64,000 bases of DNA from a virus. The number at the start of each line of letters is the position of its first letter. The stretch's first letter is position 1. The notes beneath the pieces are model-generated. The model was not told the DNA's origin. It saw only the letters and a program-made list of their open reading frames with translations, and ran no database searches. Location: IMG/VR virus record IMGVR_UViG_3300020202_000066, positions 1 to 64,000 of that record; one strand, written 5' to 3'. Shown piece after piece: positions 7,849-53,071 of this stretch. The translations under genes were made by a program, and so were the position numbers.

Positions 7849-8694
7849 ATGGCGGACGAGCCTGAGAAATCTGAGGAGCGTAGGAAGACCGAGCTGGAGA
7901 AGAGAGTTCGCCAGACAGGGCTCAAGAAGAAGCACATCGCGAATCTGTTGGGTGTCCACGTCGTAACGTTTTCCAACTGGCTGAAGTATGGGAACATCCC
8001 AGACGACAAGTTGGCGATTCTGGTGGGGATTTGTCTGAGCAACGGGGTGCGGATGACGCCGGCGGAGATTCGAGCGGCCAACGGCTTCCTTCGGCCTCGT
8101 GGTCGGCCTTCGAAGAAGGCGGTGGCGCTGGGCCATTACGCTAGCCTCACGCACCTGCCTCGGAAGGAGCTTGCGAACATCCCGATCCAGACGAACGCCG
8201 CGATGCGAGTGCTTTCTCAATCGAGCCAGACCTCTCTCCTGCCTGTTCTTGGGCGGATCCCGGCGGGTGGGGTGCGTCGCATAGAAGAACTTGCTGAAGC
8301 TTCGATTGAGTATCCGACGGCGCAGCTGAAGCGGGGAGGTGAGCACTTCGCGCTCAAGGTTCATGGCGACTCGATGGACCGCCTCTTCATTGAGGACGGC
8401 GATCTCGCGATCATCCGGAAGCAGGAGACAGCGAAGGATGGGCAGGTGGTCGTCGCTGCTCTGGACGGAGAGGTCACCCTCAAGGTGCTGCGCCTTCGCA
8501 AGGACACCGCCACGTTACTCCCTGAGAGCAACAACCCGGCGCACCAGCCAATCGAATGCGGAGATCGGCCGCCCGAAATCTACGGTGTGCTCGTTGGCTT
8601 GTTGAAAGAAGAGCTTCCCAAGATCAAGACGGAGAAGTTTGCGCGTGTCCCGATGGTGCAGCGGGGGGCGCGCAGCAAGAAGGTGAGCAAGTGA
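7849..8694 (+). CDS. LexA/CI-like self-cleaving phage repressor (S24 peptidase)
   Basis: 281 residues from ATG 7849; an upstream in-frame extension to 7366 is rejected because it reads through the promoter. Residues about 15-65 form the DNA-binding HTH (LKKKHIANLLGVHVVTFSNW). Residues 130-260 are a LexA-type peptidase: cleavage site Ala139-Gly140 (IPAGG), nucleophile Ser175 (HGDSMD), general base Lys212 (EVTLKVL). Such repressors hold a prophage silent and cut themselves when RecA signals DNA damage. Its presence argues for a temperate, SOS-inducible phage. Probable targets are the dyads at 7643-7787 and related sites, by inference. Confidence 0.9.
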   Translation: MADEPEKSEERRKTELEKRVRQTGLKKKHIANLLGVHVVTFSNWLKYGNIPDDKLAILVGICLSNGVRMTPAEIRAANGFLRPRGRPSKKAVALGHYASLTHLPRKELANIPIQTNAAMRVLSQSSQTSLLPVLGRIPAGGVRRIEELAEASIEYPTAQLKRGGEHFALKVHGDSMDRLFIEDGDLAIIRKQETAKDGQVVVAALDGEVTLKVLRLRKDTATLLPESNNPAHQPIECGDRPPEIYGVLVGLLKEELPKIKTEKFARVPMVQRGARSKKVSK

Positions 8695-20289: not shown

Positions 20290-20546
20290 TGGGCTACCTG
20301 GAAGACATGAAGGAGCGGCTGAAGAAACGGTTCTTCGAGATTCCAATCGTTCCCGGCCCGGAGGATGATCCGCGGGATGTGGATACTCGAGCGGATGGCT
20401 TGGTGTGGTTGATCGGCTGGATCGACGACCACCCGAAGGCGACGCGCGAAGAGTATCTGGCCGAGATGGATCGGGTGAAGAGCGAGGGGCCTGGATGGAT
20501 TCCGCGGCGACCTTGGCCTGAGGAGTCGAAGGGGGCGGGGCAGTGA
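20289..20546 (+). CDS. small hypothetical protein (85 aa)
   Basis: TGATG overlap with the helicase stop. Begins MGYLEDMKERLKKRFFEIP; Trp-containing middle WLIGWIDDHPK. No family recognised. Confidence 0.7.
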   Translation: MGYLEDMKERLKKRFFEIPIVPGPEDDPRDVDTRADGLVWLIGWIDDHPKATREEYLAEMDRVKSEGPGWIPRRPWPEESKGAGQ

Positions 20547-34323: not shown

Positions 34324-35577
34324 GTGGGCGAGAAGTGGAAGAAGCAGCCGTACCGCATCACAGCGCGGGGCGAGTCCTGGGAAGTGAGCCTCTACGTAGA
34401 CGGACACCGGGAGCGGAAGTCCTTCAGATGGGAGACTCCCAACGACCCGGTTGCGCGTAAGAAGGCCGAGGAGTGGGCGATTTCCTTCAAGGCCGACGCC
34501 TTCCGCGGACTCATCGGCGCCAAGAAGAAGCATCCACCGCTGCCGTTCCGGGGGCTGGCGGCGCTCTTCCTCGACGACCTGGAGTCCTCCACGAAGAACG
34601 CGAAGGGGGCGGAGAGTAGGTCTCGTCGGACCTACGTCTACTACCGCGACCGGCTCGCCCTGTACATCAGCCCGGAGCTCGGGGACATCGAGGCTCGCGA
34701 GGTGCGACGGGCTGACATCCGCCGCTACTTGAAGAAGATGAGTGACGCTGGCCTCGGGCAGGACGAGCTGAACAAGCACGTCCAGATCATCAAGCGGGTG
34801 TTCAACTGGGGGATCGAGCAGGAGAAGGTCGACGCCAACCCGGCGGCCCTACTCAAGAAGGAGAAGGCTCCCCGCAAGGTGCCGATCCGGTTCTACACGC
34901 TGGCGGAGCAGGCGGTGATCCTCGAGAAGTTGAAGGGGCCCGCGTACGGGCTGATGCTGGTGGCCTTCAAGGCCGGACTCCGGCGGCGCGAGCTGATGGG
35001 GATGCAGCTCTCCTGGATCCACTGGGACGCGAACCTCATCGAAGTGCCCTTCACGCAGCAGTTTCGGGACAAGAGCAAGGAGGGCCGGTTCGTCCCGCTG
35101 GACCCAGCCATCCGCGACTGGCTGGAGACACTCGGGCGGAAGGCCGGCCCGGTGTTCTTGACCCGGCGCTCCTACAAGTCATCGAAGGGCTTGGTCCGTC
35201 CGCTCCGCGATCCGCGGAAGCTGCTCGCTGAGATCGAGCGAGCCGTCGGCTTCCACGTGAAGCTTCACGACTGCCGGCATAGCTTCGCGTCGGTGCTCTT
35301 GGGCCAAGGGGTTGACATGCGCGATGTGCAGATAGTCCTCGGCCACGCGAGCATCACGACCACAGAGATCTACAGCCACCACGAGCCCGAGTATCTGGAA
35401 CCGGTTCGGAAGGCGATGGAGGCCGCTCGGCAGAAGGTGGCCAACCGCCACAAAACCGCCACAAGCGGGGAGGGGCCGCCGGAAGCGGCAACGGGATCAG
35501 CGGTCCAGAAGCCAGACCAGGAGCGAGAAGGAGAGGAGCGCCCTCGACTGGGATCGAACCAGCGACCCACGGATTAG
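34324..35577 (+). CDS. int: tyrosine site-specific integrase
   Basis: 417 residues from GTG 34324. N-terminal arm-binding domain, SAM-like core-binding domain (residues about 75-175), then catalytic domain: Arg in AGLRRRELM, HDCRH box, LGHASITTTEIY with the His and nucleophile Tyr. The reading frame ends inside a tRNA-Arg fragment (stop at 35575-35577), so the last residues are encoded by attP itself. Arm-type direct repeats lie inside its 3' end (35442) and just beyond attP (35684). Confidence 0.93.
   Translation: MGEKWKKQPYRITARGESWEVSLYVDGHRERKSFRWETPNDPVARKKAEEWAISFKADAFRGLIGAKKKHPPLPFRGLAALFLDDLESSTKNAKGAESRSRRTYVYYRDRLALYISPELGDIEAREVRRADIRRYLKKMSDAGLGQDELNKHVQIIKRVFNWGIEQEKVDANPAALLKKEKAPRKVPIRFYTLAEQAVILEKLKGPAYGLMLVAFKAGLRRRELMGMQLSWIHWDANLIEVPFTQQFRDKSKEGRFVPLDPAIRDWLETLGRKAGPVFLTRRSYKSSKGLVRPLRDPRKLLAEIERAVGFHVKLHDCRHSFASVLLGQGVDMRDVQIVLGHASITTTEIYSHHEPEYLEPVRKAMEAARQKVANRHKTATSGEGPPEAATGSAVQKPDQEREGEERPRLGSNQRPTD
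35442..35467 (+). repeat. integrase arm-type repeat, copy 1
   Basis: 26 bases, CAACCGCCACAAAACCGCCA plus six more, matching 35684-35709 with one difference. Each copy itself holds two ACCGCCAC units. Lies 72 bases before the attP core. Confidence 0.7.
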
Positions 35578-35586
35578 AAGTCCGTG
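35539..35586 (-). other. attP: 3' half of tRNA-Arg(TCT)
   Basis: On the minus strand this is the anticodon arm (ACGGA-CTTCTAA-TCCGT would read around 35569-35585), variable loop, T arm (GCTGG-TTCGATC-CCAGT) and acceptor 3' strand of a tRNA-Arg with anticodon TCT. The 5' half is missing. Phages carry such a 3' half so that integration restores the host tRNA gene. The crossover is probably in or near the anticodon loop. Confidence 0.85.
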
Positions 35587-35683
35587 AATAAGCTATGTCA
35601 TTCTGGCTCGATGCTGATCTGGAGCGGCCTCGCCGGTGTCAATCTGTCGCAATCGGTCCCGATCTCTCCGCTTGAAGGCTGGG

Positions 35684-35709
35684 CAACCGCCACAAAACCG
35701 CCACGAGCG
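35684..35709 (+). repeat. integrase arm-type repeat, copy 2
   Basis: Same orientation as copy 1, 98 bases beyond the attP core. Supports a P-core-P' layout as in lambda-type attachment sites. The rest of 35587-35737 has no gene. Confidence 0.7.
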
Positions 35710-35737
35710 CCTCCGCTGACTGGTGGTCTTTTTACAT

Positions 35738-36502
35738 TCACAAGTCAGGGCGGCGAGGGCCGGGCCGTCTGCCTGCGCCGCGCACCGGCCGGCGCGGACC
35801 GGTCTGCTGGCGGCCGCGGCCGCTGGTATTGGCCCGCGGCGGCAGCCCGAGAGACCGCATCCGGCCGCGCACCGATCGTTCCGATCGACGCAGGCGCGCC
35901 CCTATTTCCCTCAGAGTGAGGGACTTGTCCCGGAGCATGGCATCTTCCTCCCGCGTCCACGTCCTCCGCCCAGTCCCGACGTGAGGGTCACGCGCTCGCC
36001 GTGCGCGCGCGTACTGCGTGCTCGAGTGCGGATGACGCCGGCGCCACGCAGCGTTGCTCCACCGGCTCTGACACGGACGACACGATTTGAGTCCCCGGGC
36101 TGGCCGGCGGCGGCCGCACACCGGACAGAGGCCGGCGGCTGTCCTCTCGGCCCTCCGCCGATCGAGGGCCTCTCGCGCGCGCTGGCGCGACTCGTCCGGG
36201 GGGAGCGCCTGGCGGAGTCGGATTATCCCAAGCAGGTGGGCACGCATGGCGCATGCTTGTTCGCTCCGGCCGATCGTCTCGGCCACCTGCGCAAGCGTCA
36301 AGCGCGTGTCCGCCAGCGTGCGGTCCTCCGCCGCGGACCACGGACGCGGCGGCGGTCGTAGGAGCGGCAGGCCGAGCTTGTAGCGTCGCTGGATGCAGGC
36401 GACGCGGCTGCGCCCGATCCGAGCAGCCAGCGCGTTGATGTCGCGCGCGCGCCTGAGCGCGGCGTCCTCCGTTGCGGTCCATGGTCTACTCGATGATGTC
36501 AT
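35738..36502 (-). CDS. protein with three Myb/GcrA-like HTH repeats and a zinc knuckle
   Basis: 254 residues from ATG 36502 (GGAGTGAGGG upstream). Three repeats share the plan W-T/S-x-x-ED-x-x-L...IGRS...R...LGL: near residues 8-48, 54-94 and 181-220. Between repeats 2 and 3 is CPVCGRRRPARGLKSCRPC, a four-Cys site. It is probably a sequence-specific DNA-binding protein; phage homologues of GcrA-like or Myb-like type are seen. Tail rich in Arg/Pro. Confidence 0.78.
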   Translation of the reverse strand: MTSSSRPWTATEDAALRRARDINALAARIGRSRVACIQRRYKLGLPLLRPPPRPWSAAEDRTLADTRLTLAQVAETIGRSEQACAMRAHLLGIIRLRQALPPDESRQRAREALDRRRAERTAAGLCPVCGRRRPARGLKSCRPCQSRWSNAAWRRRHPHSSTQYARARRARDPHVGTGRRTWTREEDAMLRDKSLTLREIGARLRRSERSVRGRMRSLGLPPRANTSGRGRQQTGPRRPVRGAGRRPGPRRPDL

Positions 36503-36602
36503 TCCCTCACTCCGACCTTCGCCGGGCTGCGTGCCCCGCCGCCCCCCCCATCATCTTCGCGGGGTGCGCGCCCGCGGCCACCCCCGAGCCAAGGAGGACC
36601 GC

Positions 36603-36752
36603 ATGCCCGGCGACACCCGCGCCCTCCGCGGGGTCGCCCGCCTCACCGGGAAGGACCCCGCCGCGCTGCTGCCCGCGCTCGTGCGGAACGGGCTGCTGAG
36701 GCAGGCGAGGGGCCGGTTTGGACGTATCGGGAGCGAGCCGGGCGCGCCGGGC
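36603..36752 (+). CDS. possible truncated gene start
   Basis: AAGGAGG precedes ATG 36603, and the first 38 codons (RALRGVARLTGKDPAALLPA and onward) show the strong G/C third-position bias of real genes here. After that the bias fades and the frame runs on the reverse side of a convincing minus-strand gene. It looks like a 5' gene remnant at a mosaic junction; the end given is only the edge of the neighbour. Confidence 0.3.
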
Positions 36753-42448: not shown

Positions 42449-42530
42449 TGGGGCCGTGCCGAATCGAACGGCCAAGCGCGGCGGCATCTGCTCTACAGGC
42501 AGACGGTGGATCCCACTCCCCAGCAGCCCC
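42449..42530 (-). tRNA. tRNA-Tyr(GTA)
   Basis: Acceptor GGGGCTG/CGGCCCC with one wobble, anticodon loop CTGTAGA on a TCTGC/GCAGA stem, and the longer variable arm typical of bacterial tRNA-Tyr. CCA not encoded. Confidence 0.85.
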
Positions 42531-42541
42531 GGGAACCGAAG

Positions 42542-42616
42542 TACCGCCAGCGGGATTCGAACCCGCACTGTCACGACTCTCGATCGTGTGCCTCTGCCAG
42601 GTTGGGCTACGGCGGC
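42542..42616 (-). tRNA. tRNA, anticodon GAG by position (isotype uncertain)
   Basis: Good cloverleaf: GCCGCCG/TGGCGGT acceptor and GCGGG-TTCGAAT-CCCGC T arm. The anticodon stem CACGA/TCGTG encloses TCGAGAG, placing GAG (Leu) at 34-36, but base 33 is C and the variable loop is short, unlike class II tRNA-Leu. Confidence 0.65.
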
Positions 42617-42623
42617 AAGAAAG

Positions 42624-42707
42624 TACCCGGGGTGGGAGTCGAACCCACAAATGGACTCGCGTCCGCTGGGTCTGAGCCAGCTGGCTATCCCGTTCGCCTA
42701 CCCGGGC
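42624..42707 (-). tRNA. tRNA-Leu(CAG)
   Basis: GCTGG-CTCAGAC-CCAGC anticodon arm, long variable arm as expected for Leu, acceptor GCCCGGG/CCCGGGT. Confidence 0.88.
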
Positions 42708-42723
42708 AAGATGAACCGCACCA

Positions 42724-42796
42724 TGCCGACCCGCGGGATCGCACCGCGTTCTCCCGCTCTTCAGGCGGGCGTGAGGACTACCTTCACCAGATCGGC
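42724..42796 (-). tRNA. tRNA-Phe(GAA)
   Basis: CCCGC-CTGAAGA-GCGGG anticodon arm; acceptor GCCGATC/GGTCGGC; T loop TGCGATC departs from TTC. Confidence 0.85.
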
Positions 42797-42807
42797 GAGA
42801 GATCGCG

Positions 42808-42881
42808 TGCCCGCCCCGGGATTCGAACCCGGAACCTTCCGCTTTTGAGACGGATGCCTCTACCGGTTGGACCAGGCGGGC
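42808..42881 (-). tRNA. tRNA, anticodon CAA (Leu) on a short-variable body
   Basis: TCCGT-CTCAAAA-GCGGA gives CAA at 34-36, but the variable loop is only five bases. Acceptor GCCCGCC/GGCGGGC. Confidence 0.7.
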
Positions 42882-42886
42882 GAGAG

Positions 42887-42957
42887 CAGGCCCTGACGGA
42901 TTCGAACCGCCACCCGACGGGTTGGAGCCGTCGATGCTGCCGTTACACCAAGGACCT
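42887..42957 (-). tRNA. tRNA-Trp(CCA)
   Basis: GACGG-CTCCAAC-CCGTC anticodon arm, discriminator G, acceptor AGGTCCT/AGGGCCT. Confidence 0.88.
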
Positions 42958-42976
42958 GAGTGGGGAGTGCAGCTGG

Positions 42977-43049
42977 CTCCGGGAGCAGGGATCGAACCTG
43001 CGGCGGACCGGTTAACAGCCGGCTGCTCTGCCAACTGAGCTATCCCGGA
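42977..43049 (-). tRNA. tRNA-Asn(GTT)
   Basis: GCCGG-CTGTTAA-CCGGT anticodon arm; acceptor TCCGGGA/TCCCGGA; discriminator G. Confidence 0.9.
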
Positions 43050-43058
43050 GCGAGCTGG

Positions 43059-43127
43059 TTGCGGGCCCGGGTGTCGATCCCGGCATTCCAGGCTTATGAG
43101 GCCCGGCTGATCGCCGAATCGCCCGCA
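43059..43127 (-). tRNA. tRNA-Met(CAT)
   Basis: CGGGC-CTCATAA-GCCTG anticodon arm; acceptor TGCGGGC/GCCCGCA; D arm shorter than usual. A lysidine-modified Ile reading is possible in principle. Confidence 0.8.
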
Positions 43128-43146
43128 ACGAGTTAGGGCTGGGCCG

Positions 43147-43323
43147 TCAGGCCCCGGGATTGAGAAGGCGCAGAAGGCACCAGGCCCATGCGGGCCCGGT
43201 AAAGAGGGGGAGCCGCCACAAGTGCGGCCGTGCAGCGGGATAACGCCGAGGGACGGACGTGGTGGTCGGGAGCGCAGCACCGACCGCGGGCGCTGCCGGG
43301 CGGATCGAATGCTGTCCAGTCAT
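43147..43323 (-). CDS. possible small protein inside tRNA cluster (58 aa)
   Basis: ATG 43323 behind GAGGAGCC. Ends with a Trp/Leu-rich hydrophobic stretch (LWRLPLFTGPAWAWCLLRLL) like a membrane peptide. It fills most of the 267-base gap in the tRNA run. Low certainty. Confidence 0.35.
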   Translation of the reverse strand: MTGQHSIRPAAPAVGAALPTTTSVPRRYPAARPHLWRLPLFTGPAWAWCLLRLLNPGA

Positions 43324-43394
43324 CGGTGGCTCCTCGGGGCACGTCAGGCCCTCGGGGTCGACGTAGGATCCGACGGCGGCGGTGGGTGCAATAA

Positions 43395-43465
43395 AGGCCC
43401 CAGAGAGAATCGAACTCTCGCCACCGGGTTACAAAGCCGGCGCTCGACCTTCGAGCTATGAGGCC
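43395..43465 (-). tRNA. tRNA-Thr(TGT)
   Basis: Loop TTTGTAA on CCGGC/CCCGG (inner pair mismatched); acceptor GGCCTCA/TGGGGCC. Confidence 0.78.
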
Positions 43466-43468
43466 GAA

Positions 43469-43542
43469 GAGCCCTGACGGCGGATCGAACGCCGGTCTGC
43501 TGCTTACGAAACAGCCATCCTACCAACTGGACGATCAGGGCT
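43469..43542 (-). tRNA. tRNA-Thr(CGT)
   Basis: GCTGT-TTCGTAA-GCAGC; acceptor AGCCCTG/CAGGGCT. Confidence 0.83.
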
Positions 43543-43544
43543 GA

Positions 43545-43616
43545 AGCTCTCGCCGGGGGTCGAACCCGGGTTTCGGTCTTACCAAGACCGCGTGCTACCA
43601 GCTGCACCACGGGAGC
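43545..43616 (-). tRNA. tRNA-Thr(GGT)
   Basis: CGGTC-TTGGTAA-GACCG; acceptor GCTCCCG/CGAGAGC with one mismatch. With the two neighbours it covers all Thr codons. Confidence 0.83.
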
Positions 43617-43620
43617 GGAG

Positions 43621-43692
43621 TGCGGGTCGAGCGAGTCGAACGCTCTCATCCAGTTTGGAAGACTGGCATGCAACCACCAACATCTGGCCCGC
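43621..43692 (-). tRNA. tRNA-Gly(TCC)
   Basis: CCAGT-CTTCCAA-ACTGG; acceptor GCGGGCC/GACCCGC with one mismatch. Confidence 0.83.
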
Positions 43693-43702
43693 ATGAAACT
43701 GA

Positions 43703-43775
43703 AGTGCCCGGCGGGGCTCGAACCCGCGACCTCCTCGTTGGCAACGAGGCGTTCCGCCAACCGAACTCCGAGCAC
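43703..43775 (-). tRNA. tRNA-Gly(GCC)
   Basis: CCTCG-TTGCCAA-CGAGG; acceptor GTGCTCG/CGGGCAC. Confidence 0.87.
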
Positions 43776-43779
43776 AGGA

Positions 43780-43851
43780 TGTGGCGAGAGGGAGTCGAAC
43801 CCTCGTGACCGGATTCACAGCCCGGCGCCTGTACCGCTCGGCCATCGCCAC
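43780..43851 (-). tRNA. tRNA-His(GTG)
   Basis: CCGGG-CTGTGAA-TCCGG; acceptor GTGGCGA/TCGCCAC; an extra G precedes the 5' end as required for His identity. Confidence 0.87.
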
Positions 43852-43873
43852 CACGATCAGCACTCGAACCTGG

Positions 43874-43947
43874 CGAACATGATGGGACTCGCACCCACTT
43901 TCTCCGGCGTGACGGGCCGGCGTCTCGACTGCTTCGACCTCATGTCC
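43874..43947 (-). tRNA. tRNA-Asp(GTC) with C33
   Basis: CCGGC-CCGTCAC-GCCGG: base 33 is C instead of the near-universal U. Acceptor GGACATG/CATGTTC; discriminator G fits Asp. Confidence 0.78.
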
Positions 43948-43951
43948 GTAG

Positions 43952-44025
43952 TTCGCCCGGAGGGACTCGAACCCCCGAAATGGCTGGGTGTAGGCCAGCT
44001 GCCTTTGCCGCTTGGCGACGGGCGA
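43952..44025 (-). tRNA. tRNA, anticodon TAC (Val) with C33 on a Gln-like body
   Basis: GCTGG-CCTACAC-CCAGC. Acceptor TCGCCCG/CGGGCGA. The D region (TCGCCAAGCGGCAAAGGCA) looks like tRNA-Gln. Isotype by anticodon only. Confidence 0.7.
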
Positions 44026-44030
44026 ATGGA

Positions 44031-44101
44031 TGGAGCTCCAGGGAATCGAACCCTGATCTGCCGGGTGCAAGCCGACCGTCCTCCCGTTGAACGAGAGCCC
44101 C
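44031..44101 (-). tRNA. tRNA-Ala(TGC)
   Basis: GTCGG-CTTGCAC-CCGGC; acceptor GGGGCTC/GAGCTCC. The G3-U70 Ala identity pair is present (G3 with T70). Confidence 0.88.
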
Positions 44102-44102
44102 A

Positions 44103-44140
44103 GAAAGAGAAACCCCCGGGCCAGGTGAGTGGTCCGGGGG
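44103..44140 (-). terminator. intrinsic terminator in tRNA cluster
   Basis: CCCCCGG stem (44113-44119 with 44134-44140) followed on the minus strand by a TTTCTCTTT tract. Directly after a 25-residue peptide gene and just before tRNA-Ala, so it limits transcription of the tRNAs downstream of it. Confidence 0.75.
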
Positions 44141-44165
44141 CCTTGAGCGCGCTCTTCAGTTCGCG

Positions 44166-44243
44166 CTACAGGGCGGACCACCCGCCGGCATCGACGCCGG
44201 CCGCGTGTGCGGTCGTCCCTGTGTGCACAGTGAAGAGCAGCAT
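44166..44243 (-). CDS. 25-residue peptide before terminator
   Basis: ATG 44243 behind GGAGACG. MLLFTVHTGTTAHAAGVDAG and five more residues. Same RBS-peptide-terminator layout as 45224-45292. Could be a leader peptide for attenuation of tRNA transcription. Confidence 0.4.
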   Translation of the reverse strand: MLLFTVHTGTTAHAAGVDAGGWSAL

Positions 44244-44282
44244 GGTCGTCTCCTATCACGGTCGTGGCTATCGCGGTGCAAG

Positions 44283-44354
44283 TCCTCGCGGAGAGATTCG
44301 AACTCCCAGCCGTCTGGTTCGAAGCCAGCCGCTCTTCCGCTGAGCTACGCGAGG
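44283..44354 (-). tRNA. tRNA-Arg(TCG)
   Basis: GCTGG-CTTCGAA-CCAGA; acceptor CCTCGCG/CGCGAGG. Confidence 0.87.
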
Positions 44355-44358
44355 ATGA

Positions 44359-44431
44359 TGTACCCGGCAAGGCTCGAACTTGCGGCCGCCCTGGTAGGAA
44401 CAGGGTGCTCCTCCGACTGAGCTACGGATGC
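44359..44431 (-). tRNA. tRNA-Arg(CCT)
   Basis: CCCTG-TTCCTAC-CAGGG; acceptor GCATCCG/CGGGTAC with one mismatch at pair 2-71. Confidence 0.8.
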
Positions 44432-44453
44432 AGGAGCCACACACGGGAACTGG

Positions 44454-44528
44454 TCTGCGCGGAGGGACTCGAACCCCCGGTCTCCTGCTCCCAAGGCAGG
44501 CGCTTTCGCCAGGCTAAGCTACGCGCAG
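44454..44528 (-). tRNA. tRNA-Pro(TGG)
   Basis: CCTGC-CTTGGGA-GCAGG; acceptor CTGCGCG/CGCGCAG. Confidence 0.88.
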
Positions 44529-44531
44529 AGA

Positions 44532-44602
44532 TGCACCCACGTGGAATCGAACCACGGGCTCGGTCTTCGGAGGACCGCATCCTTCCTCTGGACGATGGGT
44601 GC
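44532..44602 (-). tRNA. tRNA-Arg(CCG)
   Basis: CGGTC-CTCCGAA-GACCG; acceptor GCACCCA/TGGGTGC. Confidence 0.88.
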
Positions 44603-44609
44603 TGCTTGG

Positions 44610-44677
44610 TGCCTCTGTCGGGAGTCGAACCCGATGGGCAGCCTTCGCAGGGCTGCCTCCAATCCCCTGGCAGAAGC
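44610..44677 (-). tRNA. tRNA-Arg(GCG), shortened D arm
   Basis: CAGCC-CTGCGAA-GGCTG; acceptor GCTTCTG/CAGAGGC followed by encoded CCA. At 68 bases the D region is clearly short. GCG is an uncommon Arg anticodon. Confidence 0.7.
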
Positions 44678-44684
44678 ACGGAAG

Positions 44685-44756
44685 TAGGCCGTCGTGGTGC
44701 TGCCCCACGCTCCTCCGACTTATAAGGTCGGCGCTCTGCTGATGAGCTAACGGCCC
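44685..44756 (-). tRNA. tRNA-Ile(TAT) with non-consensus T loop
   Basis: CCGAC-CTTATAA-GTCGG; acceptor GGGCCGT/ACGGCCT. T stem CGTGG/CCACG is good but the loop is GGCAGCA, lacking T-psi-C. Confidence 0.72.
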
Positions 44757-44818
44757 AGATGGCCGGGAAGCGTGGAGCTATATACGCCGTCGGGGAGACG
44801 GCACCGGGGGTGGGCAGA

Positions 44819-44864
44819 ATGGTCGCCTCGGGGCGAAGCTGGTGAGTGCGATGTGGGCGACCAT
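44819..44864. repeat. inverted repeat in tRNA gap
   Basis: ATGGTCGCC and GGCGACCAT, 28 bases apart. It sits in the 149-base gap (44757-44905), which also holds a short GCCGTC/GACGGC hairpin and no supported gene. Confidence 0.5.
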
Positions 44865-44905
44865 GGTCCAGCGTAGCGCGCACGCGCGGTGGCTGGTGCA
44901 GATGA

Positions 44906-44992
44906 CGGAGAGCCAGAGACTCGAACTCTGACGCGGTGAACCGCCCGCCGGGTAGCAACCGGGGCCCGATACCAGTTACGGGATAGCTCTCC
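44906..44992 (-). tRNA. tRNA-Ser(GCT)
   Basis: Anticodon loop TTGCTAC with CCGG stem; long variable arm (CGGGCGG...CCGCG); acceptor GGAGAGC/GCTCTCC; discriminator G. Confidence 0.87.
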
Positions 44993-45000
44993 AGGAACAG

Positions 45001-45081
45001 AGGAGGGCGGAGGTGTCGATCCCCGAGCCCGAAGGCCCCACCGTTTTCAAGACGGCTTGCCGCGCCGGCGGCGCGCCCTCC
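45001..45081 (-). tRNA. tRNA-Ser(TGA)
   Basis: CCGT-CTTGAAA-ACGG anticodon arm; long GC-rich variable arm; acceptor GGAGGGC/GCCCTCC. T stem has a weak outer pair. Confidence 0.8.
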
Positions 45082-45095
45082 AGGAACAACACCAG

Positions 45096-45165
45096 AACGC
45101 TGGCCGGGAATCGAACCCGGGCCGGTACCTTTGCAGGGCACCTCCGCGCCACGCGAATCCAGCGC
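45096..45165 (-). tRNA. tRNA-Cys(GCA)
   Basis: GTGCC-CTGCAAA-GGTAC; acceptor GCGCTGG/CCAGCGT; discriminator U as required for Cys. Confidence 0.86.
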
Positions 45166-45205
45166 AAAGAGAAAGCCCCCGGCGGTCCTGTGACTGCCGG
45201 GGGCT
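45166..45205 (-). terminator. intrinsic terminator in tRNA cluster
   Basis: AGCCCCCGGC/GCCGGGGGCT ten-pair stem, then TTCTCTTT on the minus strand. Lies after the 22-residue peptide gene and before tRNA-Cys, matching the layout at 44103-44140. Confidence 0.78.
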
Positions 45206-45223
45206 CTCGATCCTGCGTCGTCG

Positions 45224-45292
45224 TCAGGGCGTCGAGACTCCCGGCCAGCCGGCGCCGCGGGAACTCGACGAACAGGTGACGATGCGGATCAT
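45224..45292 (-). CDS. 22-residue peptide before terminator
   Basis: ATG 45292 behind GATAGGAG. MIRIVTCSSSSRGAGWPGVS and two more. The sequence before its start (GATAGGAG...GACCATG) resembles that of the 25-residue peptide at 44243. Confidence 0.4.
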   Translation of the reverse strand: MIRIVTCSSSSRGAGWPGVSTP

Positions 45293-45368
45293 GGTCTGCT
45301 CCTATCCGCGTCGGGACGCGGTGGGTGCACGCTCGGGCGATCGAAGGAGGTTCACGGGGGGGAAGAGG

Positions 45369-45671
45369 CTAGACGCCGACGGAGACGACCTTTCCCAGGA
45401 TCGCGGTCCGCTTGACCCAACCGTTGATGCGGCCGATGTTGTTCCCGATGAGAGCTCGGTCTCCCTGCAGCTGCTTGACCAGATGCAAGAGGAATCCTCC
45501 ACGCCAGCGGACGAACACCGCGTCTCCGACCGCTACGGCCATGGGATCGACCGGCGCGATGGTCACGAGCTCGCCGCTCTCGATCCGGCCGCGCATCGAC
45601 CCCCCGAGCGGACGAACCTTCGCGACTCGACCAGCAGAGATCTCCCGCAGCGCATCCGATGCCCAGCCCAT
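45369..45671 (-). CDS. stand-alone S24/S26-type peptidase domain (100 aa)
   Basis: ATG 45671 behind GGAGGAG. GGSMRGRIESGELVTI puts a nucleophile Ser at 25, and FLLHLVKQLQGD gives Lys at 66, the Ser-Lys pair of LexA/UmuD/signal peptidase folds. No HTH and no membrane helix, and no clear Ala-Gly cleavage site, so it may process another protein or be a UmuD'-like remnant. Located between tRNA genes. Confidence 0.75.
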   Translation of the reverse strand: MGWASDALREISAGRVAKVRPLGGSMRGRIESGELVTIAPVDPMAVAVGDAVFVRWRGGFLLHLVKQLQGDRALIGNNIGRINGWVKRTAILGKVVSVGV

Positions 45672-45760
45672 CGCCTGACTCCTCCGGCGACCTTCGTGCG
45701 GCCGCCACCGATGCCGGGCGAGTAGGTCGCGCGCTGCGATTCGGGTGCGCGGATCTCGAG

Positions 45761-45846
45761 AGGACCGGAAGGGGATCGAACCCTTCGTGCGCCTCGCGGC
45801 GCGACGGCTTAAAAGGCCGCTGCCGACACCAGTCGGCCACCGGTCC
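45761..45846 (-). tRNA. tRNA, anticodon TTT (Lys) on a class II body
   Basis: GCGGC-CTTTTAA-GCCGT gives TTT, but there is a long variable arm (CGCGCCGCGAGGCGCACG), typical of Leu/Ser. Acceptor GGACCGG/CCGGTCC. True isotype uncertain. Confidence 0.65.
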
Positions 45847-45848
45847 GA

Positions 45849-45918
45849 TACCCCCGCCAGGAATTGCACCTGGGTCTCCACGTCATCAGCGTGGCATCCT
45901 GCTGTTGAACGACGGGGA
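45849..45918 (-). tRNA. tRNA-Ile(GAT)
   Basis: CCACG-CTGATGA-CGTGG; acceptor ATCCCCG/CGGGGGT; T loop TGCAATT. Confidence 0.83.
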
Positions 45919-45923
45919 TGCGG

Positions 45924-45996
45924 ATGAACCCGCCGGGATTCGCACCCGGATGCCCGGATTAAGAGTCCGGTCCGTTGCTGTTACGGTCACGGGTCC
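45924..45996 (-). tRNA. tRNA-Lys(CTT)
   Basis: CCGGA-CTCTTAA-TCCGG; acceptor GGACCCG/CGGGTTC. Confidence 0.87.
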
Positions 45997-46008
45997 AGAG
46001 GAGGGGAG

Positions 46009-46081
46009 CAGCTCCTGATCGTGTCGAGCGATCACCTTCCGGGTCAAAGCCGGACGTGCAGAGCCGCTACACCAAGCAGCC
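46009..46081 (-). tRNA. tRNA-Gln(TTG)
   Basis: TCCGG-CTTTGAC-CCGGA; acceptor GGCTGCT/AGGAGCT with one mismatch and one wobble; T loop CTCGACA. Diverged but foldable. Confidence 0.65.
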
Positions 46082-46090
46082 GGGGGAGAG

Positions 46091-46161
46091 CAGCCGCCCA
46101 GGGAATCGAACCCCGACCCTCTCGGTCAGAACGAGGTGTGCTGCCACTACACCCGGCGGCT
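46091..46161 (-). tRNA. tRNA-Gln(CTG)
   Basis: CTCG-TTCTGAC-CGAG anticodon arm; acceptor AGCCGCC/GGCGGCT; discriminator G. Confidence 0.83.
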
Positions 46162-46356
46162 TCGGAATTGATCCAGCTGGTTGACGGTGGGGCGGTGAAG
46201 CGAGAGCAGCGCCTCACTCTTACCCGCCGAGCGCCCTCGGCAGACCCCTCCGCCGACCAGCTACGCCTGGCGTTGCTGGATGGGTTTGGCCCGTCCGGGC
46301 CCGGGAATGCCGGCACCCGCGACGGGCCGACGCTTGAGCAGGAAGGAGCGGAGGAG
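46162..46356. other. gap in tRNA cluster
   Basis: About 195 bases with no supported gene or clear RNA. It contains a GC-rich palindromic stretch CCCGGGCCCGG near 46295. Confidence 0.35.
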
Positions 46357-46429
46357 TAGCCCGCCAGGGACTCGAACCCTGCTTTCCTGGCTGAGAACCA
46401 GGTGTCCTGGCCGGATAGACGAGCGGGCC
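46357..46429 (-). tRNA. tRNA-Glu(CTC)
   Basis: CCTGG-TTCTCAG-CCAGG; acceptor GGCCCGC/GCGGGCT. Confidence 0.86.
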
Positions 46430-46435
46430 ATGAGA

Positions 46436-46507
46436 TAGCCCGCCGGAGACTCGAACTCCGCTTCCCCGTTTGAAGGACGGGGGACTTCACCCATAGTCGA
46501 GCGGGCC
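46436..46507 (-). tRNA. tRNA-Glu(TTC) with C33
   Basis: CCCGT-CCTTCAA-ACGGG: anticodon TTC, base 33 is C. Acceptor shared with the neighbouring Glu(CTC), from which it may have been copied. Confidence 0.78.
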
Positions 46508-50219: not shown

Positions 50220-51167
50220 TCACCCGGACCGGAGCCCCGGCAGCCGGCACCGGGGGCAGACCTCGTACAAGCGGGCGTCTTTGCACACTGCGCAGGGCAG
50301 CTTGAGCGTGTCGCACTCCTGCCGGTACCGCAGCGCACAGGGATCGCAGAGCTCGAATTCGTCGGGCACCGAGGTCCTGAGGTCCATCGATGCGCAGGCG
50401 GCACAGAGGTGACTCGTGCATGCCTCCACCGCGAGCGCTTCCTCCGCACGGTTCGGCCGCGGCCGGGGGACCTCCCACCCCTTGCCGCACTTCTCGCAGC
50501 CGACCTGCCTGCGCTGGAAGCCGATGGAGGGTCCGTCGACGAGCTTGTGGCGGATCACGGCCGCCGCGGCGGTGGGTGGATCGTTCGGCTGCGCGGACTC
50601 CTCGACAGGGGGCAACGGATCGGTGGAGCTCCGAGGAATTTTGGGGGAGTCCTCCGCCGCGGGCGGACAGCGAGGGGGGCGACCGGCCTGGTCGAGGGGC
50701 TCGTACACGACCACCCGGACGTCGGGGAGCCCGGCGAAGGCGCGCTCGATCAGGGGGCGGACGTCGGACCAGGCGAGCCCGCCCAAGCCGCAGCCCAGTG
50801 CGGGGATGGCGATCGATGGGATGCTCCGCTCCTTCACCTCACGGACCAGCGCGGCCAGCCCGGTCTCGATGTAAGCCAGAGTGCTCTTGCCGGTCCAGCG
50901 CCGCTTCGTCGGGAAGTTGATGATGAGGGAGCGGGGCCCGAGTCGACCCAGGTCGAACACGAACAGGCGGCCCGGGTAAACGTCGCCGCGGTCGCACGCT
51001 GCGACGTAAGCCTTGAAGTTCTCTGGATACGCGGCTTTGAACTTGGCGGCGAGGCCCGCTCCCATCACGCCGAGGCAGTTCACGGGGTTGACCAAGGCCA
51101 CGACGTCGGCCCAGAGAATGTCGCCTGTGTTGAACTCGATGTGGGACGGGCTGGGCTGGATGTTCAA
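50220..51167 (-). CDS. DarG-like macrodomain protein with C-terminal zinc fingers
   Basis: 315 residues from TTG 51167. Residues 8-160 are a macrodomain: NTGDILWADVVALVNPVNCLG, GVMGAGLAAKF, NFPTKRRWTGKS and ALGCGLGGLAW match the DarG subfamily, which removes ADP-ribose from DNA. Residues 215-315 add CEKCGKGW, CAACAS, CDPCA, CAVC, CPRC. A phage macrodomain could reverse DarT ADP-ribosylation of phage DNA or degrade ADP-ribose signals. No DarT gene is next to it, so an anti-defence role is more likely than a toxin-antitoxin pair. Confidence 0.82.
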   Translation of the reverse strand: MNIQPSPSHIEFNTGDILWADVVALVNPVNCLGVMGAGLAAKFKAAYPENFKAYVAACDRGDVYPGRLFVFDLGRLGPRSLIINFPTKRRWTGKSTLAYIETGLAALVREVKERSIPSIAIPALGCGLGGLAWSDVRPLIERAFAGLPDVRVVVYEPLDQAGRPPRCPPAAEDSPKIPRSSTDPLPPVEESAQPNDPPTAAAAVIRHKLVDGPSIGFQRRQVGCEKCGKGWEVPRPRPNRAEEALAVEACTSHLCAACASMDLRTSVPDEFELCDPCALRYRQECDTLKLPCAVCKDARLYEVCPRCRLPGLRSG

Positions 51168-52117: not shown

Positions 52118-53071
52118 ATGGAGACCCGACCTGTCCCTTCCGAGCTCGTGGTCACCCACGAGATCCCCGCCGACCGGAACCCGGCGCTGGTCTATCTGGG
52201 CAGCCTTGGGGCCGGCAGTCTCCACTCCCAGACCGGCGCGCTCGAGCAGATGGCCCGCCTCCTCAGCGGCGGACTCGTCGGCCTGCGGGAACTCAACTGG
52301 TCCGCCGTCCGATACCCGCACGTCGCGCGCCTCAGGACATTGCTGGTCGACCAAGGCAAGGCGCCCGCGACGGTGAACCGATTCCTGGCAGCCATCAAGG
52401 GAACTGCCCGGGAATCCTGGCGACTCGGGTACATCGATGCCGAAGAGCTGCGGCGTGTCGAAGACGTGAAGTCCGTGCGAGGCTCGACCCTCCCCGCAGG
52501 CCGGGCACTTTCCATCGCCGAGGTTCAGGCGCTCGGCAATGCGTGCGACCGGACCACCCCCGGCGGGGCGCGCGATGCTGCGATGATCGCAGTCCTGTTC
52601 GGCGGGGGCCTGCGCCGGCAGGAGCTGGTCTCGCTTGACCTCAGCGACTACACGCCCGTGACCGGCGAGCTCCGCATCCGCGCTGGCAAGGGGCACAAGG
52701 AGCGGCTCGTGTACGCGACCAACGGCAGCGCGACCCTCCTGGCCGCCTGGCTTGCGCATCGCGGCGGCGAGCCGGGGCCGCTGTTCGTCCCCGTGAACAA
52801 GGGCGGTCGGGTGACGATCGCTCGCTTGAACCCACAAGCGGTGTACATGATGCTGCGAGCTCGTGGCGCCGAGGCGGGCCTCGCCCCCTTCAGCCCGCAC
52901 GACCTGCGCCGGACCTTCATCGGCGAGCTGCTGGACCGTGGGGCCGACCTCGCTGCAGTGCAGCAGCTCGCCGGTCACGCGAACATCACCACGACCGCCC
53001 GGTACGACCGCCGCGGAGAGCGCGCCAAGCGCAAGGCCGCCGAGCTCCTGCACATCCCGTTCGGCCAGTAG
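52118..53071 (+). CDS. second tyrosine recombinase (XerC/D-like)
   Basis: 317 residues from ATG 52118 (GAGAGGAG upstream). Catalytic Arg in GGGLRRQELVSL, SPHDLRRTFIGEL box, AGHANITTTARYDRR with His and Tyr nucleophile. Shorter than the integrase at 34.3 kb and more Xer-like. Possible roles are resolving genome multimers, inverting a segment, or a second integration system; no repeat target was identified next to it. Confidence 0.87.
   Translation: METRPVPSELVVTHEIPADRNPALVYLGSLGAGSLHSQTGALEQMARLLSGGLVGLRELNWSAVRYPHVARLRTLLVDQGKAPATVNRFLAAIKGTARESWRLGYIDAEELRRVEDVKSVRGSTLPAGRALSIAEVQALGNACDRTTPGGARDAAMIAVLFGGGLRRQELVSLDLSDYTPVTGELRIRAGKGHKERLVYATNGSATLLAAWLAHRGGEPGPLFVPVNKGGRVTIARLNPQAVYMMLRARGAEAGLAPFSPHDLRRTFIGELLDRGADLAAVQQLAGHANITTTARYDRRGERAKRKAAELLHIPFGQ

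Follow-up and report, generated by a model that had tools for sequence, protein, structure and literature searches.

The jumbo myovirus XacN1, a Xanthomonas phage with a 384 kb genome, has transfer RNAs (tRNAs) for all 20 amino acids together with suppressor tRNAs, 56 tRNAs lying in its terminal repeats; its authors looked for genes that the CUA tRNAs might act on, without success (PMC5852040). Dense tRNA array units, defined as at least 20 tRNA genes at a density of at least 2 per kb, are known from mycobacteria and from mycobacteriophages of clusters C, V and M, where all 20 isotypes are likewise covered; anticodons labelled 'Sec' and 'Pyl' are among those of cluster C (PMC5966550). Here the two kinds of system are compared with a phage represented by the 89,959-base IMG/VR virus record IMGVR_UViG_3300020202_000066, of which bases 1–64,000 are the analyzed stretch (the window). 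The window holds an array of 33 tRNA genes at 42449–46507, while the same contig carries, outside the window, a 34th tRNA gene with the anticodon UCA directly in front of a gene for a PTH2-like (peptidyl-tRNA-hydrolase-like) protein, whose frame is closed by an early UGA. Jointly, the array and a PTH2-like gene gated by a suppressor of the phage's own are the best explanation of this locus, and we consider it quite probable.

The UCA tRNA (87187–87258, plus strand) has an anticodon that reads the UGA stop. The ATG of the PTH2-like gene (87272–87622, plus strand) lies 13 nt past it and is preceded by the Shine-Dalgarno sequence AGGAGG. The gene starts with ATG-GTC-TTC-ACG-TGA, that is, codon 5 is an in-frame TGA (87284–87286) followed by 111 open codons, and this early UGA matches the anticodon of the adjoining tRNA. 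Selenocysteine was ruled out as its meaning: the variable region of the UCA tRNA is 3–4 nt long, and the selenocysteine-like tRNA of the array has the anticodon UUU. At a guess, tryptophan is the likeliest amino acid for the UCA tRNA, judging by its C35, A36 and G73.

Relatives of the encoded protein were found in jumbo phages, and 52 family loci, mostly from such phages, were examined. In 36 of them an ATG is followed by an in-frame stop at codon 2–9; a strict script recovered 30 of these gated loci, and six were recognized by eye, namely XacN1, RAS14, L174, L175 (later in-frame ATG), L173 and L178. The first 28 gated loci represent 16 protein clusters at 70% identity, while ungated members include RaK2, Hallingskeid and the L043 group. 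The gate stop is UAG in 35 of the 36 loci and UGA in the window phage alone, and the base after it is A or G in all 36. Nonsense suppression works best with a purine after the stop. The commonest anticodon among the tRNAs near the gene is CTA (35 of 111), and a CUA tRNA was present in every gated genome that was checked more widely (Serratia phage BF, IMG/VR 2595698888, IMG/VR 2974588491, SNUABM_19, RAS14 and LR756511); among the tRNAs found in the ungated RaK2 and Hallingskeid, which include some weak, unresolved calls, none with CUA was seen. XacN1, whose gene is gated, also encodes a CUA tRNA (PMC5852040). Its family member, ORF364, has the early UAG (ATG AAG TAG ACC) before the annotated start, so that XacN1 shares with the window phage a full 20-amino-acid tRNA set, a suppressor tRNA and an early-stopped PTH2-like gene, differing in genome size, in the placement of its 56 tRNAs in terminal repeats and in using CUA instead of UCA.

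The gene is unannotated in Serratia phage BF and SNUABM_19, while its annotated start in XacN1 and RAS14 is placed past the stop. The missed gene of BF (KY630187, L127) is located at approximately 286083–286417; its omission and the late start of ORF364 in XacN1 (AP018399, L055) are apparently due to the early UAG. PTH2 has been noted across jumbo phages in a paper which does not mention an in-frame early stop or suppressor tRNAs (PMC7824862), and by profile and predicted fold it is the same family as here. No description of the early in-frame stop was found in the literature searched, mostly without full texts. Phage Atu_ph07 encodes a UCA tRNA as well; a search run without a control found no family member in it. 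In the IMG/VR contigs L043–L053 the PTH2-like domain is fused to an N-terminal domain, has no early stop and is followed directly downstream by a CUA tRNA; these proteins read MK[ET]QI where XacN1 has its UAG at codon 3. Near the gated gene of L081, L082 and L090, tmRNA-like (transfer-messenger RNA-like) genes and several CUA tRNAs were observed.

The family was assigned to PTH2 by Pfam PF01981, matched by 8 of 13 members (best E-value 2e-6), and by a family profile matching PDB 2zv3 (4.8e-5). An AlphaFold2 model of a relative (A2) had a predicted local distance difference test score (pLDDT) of 95.2 and matched the archaeal PTH2 structures 3erj (1.6e-6), 2zv3 and 1xty, so a PTH2-type fold is predicted among the relatives. 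The product would be a PTH2-type, peptidyl-tRNA-hydrolase-like protein, with hydrolase activity suggested by this kinship. No relative of the gene, nor of the first of the two integrases of this phage, was found in the bacterial genomes searched.

On balance, though with reservations, we favor the reading that suppressor tRNAs of phages serve a dedicated target, namely a PTH2-like gene shut by a stop at codon 2–9 that no tRNA other than one encoded by the phage itself would read; this pairing would be conserved across many lineages and exchanged as a whole (UAG with CUA, UGA with UCA), the hydrolase being made in step with peptidyl-tRNA drop-off. The UCA tRNA would then be an opal suppressor with the gene directly behind it as the likeliest target, the frame closed by UGA at codon 5 being opened only if the suppressor outcompetes release factor 2 (RF2); in the other phages the same gene, closed by UAG, would be opened by a CUA tRNA. 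Host synthetases would have to charge the suppressor. Without it ribosomes would yield a peptide of 1–8 residues and stop, while with the charged suppressor they would read on; how much hydrolase is made would thus depend both on the availability of suppressor tRNA and on the activity of release factors. The probable task of the protein is to recycle peptidyl-tRNAs lost from the ribosome at an early stage of translation, freeing their tRNAs. Such drop-off is described as frequent in early translation (PMC10192219). The first codons of the gated gene would themselves form a minigene of 1–8 codons, where drop-off occurs, so that the hydrolase could be produced as the need for it arises. A related logic is found in the RF2 gene prfB, whose codon 26 is an in-frame UGA that serves autoregulation through a +1 frameshift. 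There, as proposed here, an early in-frame stop ties the synthesis of a translation factor to termination efficiency; prfB, however, uses a frameshift, while the PTH2-like gene has one continuous frame and the phage supplies a dedicated suppressor tRNA.

The early stop might instead end a short leader open reading frame (ORF), with the PTH2-like protein starting at a later non-AUG codon and the suppressor being irrelevant. The gene of the window phage does have a GTG seven codons past the TGA, and short leader ORFs (minigenes) are able to regulate downstream genes (PMC8708949). Most gated loci, however, have no ATG, GTG or TTG between the stop and the conserved core, the Shine-Dalgarno sequence is placed to serve the first ATG, and a common pattern (approximately P-Y-x-Y-V) is kept just after the stop, with N-[DE]-K-T-W-I-Y-V encoded in nine loci with synonymous changes, which makes a leader ORF quite unlikely. 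A further explanation would be that these phages are generally UAG- or UGA-recoded and that the early stop is one among many reassigned codons, as in the stop-recoded phAss-1, which encodes a suppressor tRNA and has the stop in 41 ORFs (PMC10607447). Both systems have a phage-encoded suppressor tRNA that reads a stop codon, but here the stop is confined to one gene family, at codon 2–9, in genomes with an otherwise seemingly standard code. Further in-frame TAGs do occur in a few members (L061, L066, L080 and L176); yet unrelated phages have the stop in this one gene, at codon 2–9 each time, and in a 45-kb stretch of BF the PTH2-like gene is the only one with the gate layout. Moreover, UGA is the commonest stop of the window phage, ending 75 of its 119 called genes, while in a stop-recoded phage the suppressed stop is hardly used, if at all, as a terminator; general UGA recoding was therefore ruled out for this genome, and we regard recoding as a very unlikely explanation overall. 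Since UGA is the main stop of the genome, the UCA suppressor is presumably weak or context-bound.

Several observations weigh against the dedicated-target reading. The mechanical gate pattern has three further, chance occurrences in this genome: UGA gates at 20495, 25087 and 46931 were judged fortuitous, one of them falling inside an HNH gene but out of its frame. The early UGA is known from a single metagenomic assembly, with no close relative confirming it, and the window phage's own member matches PF01981 weakly (E-value 0.022, below the gathering score). With UGA as the main stop of the genome, a UCA suppressor should cause read-through elsewhere, and no compensating tandem stops were seen. 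Gate and suppressor are also separable, as the ungated L072, L083, L043 group and L092 adjoin a CUA tRNA too, and the gated L062, L071, L075 and L180 show no suppressor tRNA within 3 kb.

All 33 genes of the array are on the minus strand. ARAGORN called 29 of them, and the Rfam model RF00005 (cut-off 29 bits) added Asp-GTC (44.7 bits), Ile-TAT (44.1 bits) and Lys-CTT (50.3 bits). Arg-GCG scored only 21.5 bits, but was taken as the 33rd tRNA because its acceptor, anticodon and T stems are fully paired and its CCA is encoded. The count thus agrees with the 33 tRNA-like genes reported in the first-pass annotation, and its claim that the anticodons serve all 20 amino acids held as well: all 33 are distinct and at least one is present for each amino acid. 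The covariance-model check proposed there placed 25 of the 33 above the RF00005 cut-off or that of the tRNA-Sec model (47 bits); the eight below (Tyr, Met, Gly-TCC, Arg-GCG, both Ser, Cys and Glu-TTC) were accepted from ARAGORN or hand reading. A cloverleaf-parsing script resolved 32 of the 33, their acceptor, anticodon and T stems being nearly complete, and missed only the Ala tRNA, which forms a normal cloverleaf by eye. With 33 genes in 4.06 kb (8.1 tRNAs per kb, a few short ORFs being interspersed) the array lies above both bounds of a tRNA array unit, and a chance origin of the pattern is excluded. The mycobacteriophage arrays have 21–29 tRNAs at approximately 4–6 per kb (PMC5966550), and no sequence kinship with them was evident beyond single tRNAs. 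A full set in one phage is indeed uncommon, as had been suggested, although already published for XacN1 and the mycobacteriophages, and the array by itself belongs to this known class.

Six genes were entered on ARAGORN, Rfam and the parser together: the GAG tRNA (42541–42616; Leu by anticodon, class I body), Leu-CAG (42623–42707; class II, A73), the CAA tRNA (42807–42881; Leu by anticodon, class I body), Trp-CCA (42886–42957; G73), Val-TAC (43951–44025; A73) and a class II tRNA of uncertain isotype with a UUU anticodon (45760–45846; T73). ARAGORN and Rfam supported Phe-GAA (42724–42796; T-loop TGC with G55), Asn-GTT (42974–43049; encoded CCA), Thr-TGT (43395–43465), Thr-CGT (43469–43541), Thr-GGT (43545–43616), Gly-GCC (43703–43775; T73), His-GTG (43780–43851; A73), Ala-TGC (44027–44102; G3:U70), Arg-TCG (44282–44354), Arg-CCT (44357–44432), Pro-TGG (44451–44528; encoded CCA), Arg-CCG (44532–44602), Ile-GAT (45849–45919; G55 with A18), Gln-TTG (46008–46081), Gln-CTG (46090–46161) and Glu-CTC (46356–46429). 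From ARAGORN and the parser came Tyr-GTA (42449–42530; class II, A73), Met-CAT (43056–43127; elongator type, encoded CCA, short D arm), Gly-TCC (43620–43692; weak in Rfam, 26.6 bits), Ser-GCT (44904–44993; class II, G73), Cys-GCA (45095–45165; U73) and Glu-TTC (46436–46507), and from ARAGORN Ser-TGA (45000–45081; class II, T73). Rfam and the parser gave Asp-GTC (43874–43947; encoded CCA, G55), Arg-GCG (44610–44677; short D arm) and Ile-TAT (44685–44756; T-loop GGCAGCA with G54 and G55), and Rfam gave Lys-CTT (45925–45996; G55 with A18).

Identity elements were read off the sequence and judged against general knowledge. The Ala tRNA has G3:U70, the alanine identity pair, and U73 is present in the Cys and Thr tRNAs. 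The tRNA-His has A73, like that of alphaproteobacteria, which gives a weak hint of an alphaproteobacterial host. Of the four isotypes which the first-pass annotation had based on the anticodon alone, Val-TAC looks sound (class I, A73), while the other three are odd or doubtful. Leu-GAG and Leu-CAA are class I with a 5-nt variable region, which is odd for Leu; this amino acid is kept in the set because Leu-CAG is class II with A73. The UUU tRNA, Lys by anticodon, has a long variable arm, a tRNA-Sec-like D arm (6-bp stem, 4-nt loop) and matches the tRNA-Sec model at 51.3 bits, so that its isotype appears doubtful; were it charged with another amino acid, Lys codons would be misread. Lys is retained because Lys-CTT has A73. 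The Ser-TGA isotype also seems doubtful in view of its T73. None of these four is required for coverage of the 20 amino acids, and doubts about isotypes leave no gap in the set. The sole tRNA-Met reads as an elongator (U1-A72, a stem without the three G-C pairs), and the array is therefore without an initiator tRNA.

Five tRNAs (Phe, Asp, Ile-GAT, Ile-TAT and Lys-CTT) have G55 in the T-loop, which is why ARAGORN missed three of them. In four of the five the D-loop has AG instead of GG, Phe being ambiguous, while GG is present in each of the 27 parsed tRNAs whose base 55 is not G. This looks like covariation of the 18–55 tertiary pair and suggests that pseudouridine 55 has been lost; no report of G18/U55 tRNA variants was found in the literature searched with a limited set of terms. 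Odd T-loops and D arms, eight genes under the Rfam cut-offs and two tRNAs with an unexpected base at position 73 could mean that the array consists partly of passively acquired or decaying genes, only some of them working. This is unlikely, since hardly any base pair is missing from the acceptor, anticodon and T stems of the array, anticodons are never duplicated, and the pairing of G55 with A18 in at least four of five cases, as if the tertiary contact were kept, argues for function over decay.

Codon coverage was calculated with genes from a home-made caller. Under strict wobble rules 11 sense codons, making up 13.7% of phage codons, are unread by the array, while with four-way wobble of U34 only AGA, CTA and TTA (0.41%) remain. 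The array has a Watson-Crick cognate for 65% of phage codons; 55% would be expected if the choice within each amino acid were random (p = 0.014). This modest match to phage codon use is in keeping with an array that chiefly offsets codon-usage differences between phage and host; against this stand the frequent GCC, GTC, CCC and TCC codons, which have no exact reader, the rare AGG and ATA, which have one, and a complete coverage exceeding the need, and we hold this purpose to be doubtful. Replacement of tRNAs cleaved by anticodon nucleases has been proposed for cluster C1 mycobacteriophages and predicts that tRNA-fMet (formylmethionine) is avoided (PMC10264068). The set, which is near-complete, repeats no anticodon and lacks tRNA-fMet, corresponds to that prediction; nuclease or repair genes were, however, not found among the proteins scanned. 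An anti-defense kit refilling tRNAs cut by the host is, accordingly, a tentative possibility, compatible with the suppressor-gated explanation preferred here.

The suggested independence from host tRNAs stands in part. The array would be a near-complete, non-redundant elongator set, charged by host synthetases, and the translation of phage mRNA would then depend little on elongator tRNAs still left in the host, which fits operation in a host whose tRNA pool has been depleted; the missing tRNA-fMet fits nuclease evasion. A host-independent translation kit would in addition comprise an initiator tRNA and synthetases or repair enzymes, but there is no initiator, no aminoacyl-tRNA synthetase or tRNA-repair enzyme was found among 42 proteins scanned against PHROGs (not every gene), and the fit to codon use is only modest.

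The virus is a tailed phage by its proteins: a PHROGs protein scan identified terminase, portal, head protease, major head protein and tape measure at 70–86 kb. The genome is GC-rich. Two different tyrosine-type integrases (34324–35574 and 52118–53068) and a CI/UmuD-like repressor (7849–8691) indicate that the phage is probably temperate. The array region is flanked by the two integrases and may lie inside a mobile segment. Between the array and the second integrase, the protein encoded at 50220–51167 matches a PHROG phosphatase (phrog_335, 3.7e-36) and is perhaps a macro-domain protein, while a stretch of 1.2 kb without called genes directly after the first integrase (35578–36752) is a candidate attachment-site region. 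No close relatives were found by DNA or by terminase protein in the phage collection or IMG/VR. The major capsid protein has relatives on 32 contigs, at approximately 26–38% identity; none of these carries any tRNA in the examined stretch, so the array is without a traceable homologue among them.

Compact and nearly complete as a decoding set, and found in a record of only 90 kb, the array is useful for asking whether a phage can translate with elongator tRNAs of its own. The part that would surprise a specialist is, however, not the array but the proposed suppressor-gated gene, supported by sequence conservation, which also shows that public annotation misses or mis-starts the PTH2-like gene in cultured phages. 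If the proposed pairing is true, the conserved, matched stop would give a concrete target for phage suppressor tRNAs under a normal code.

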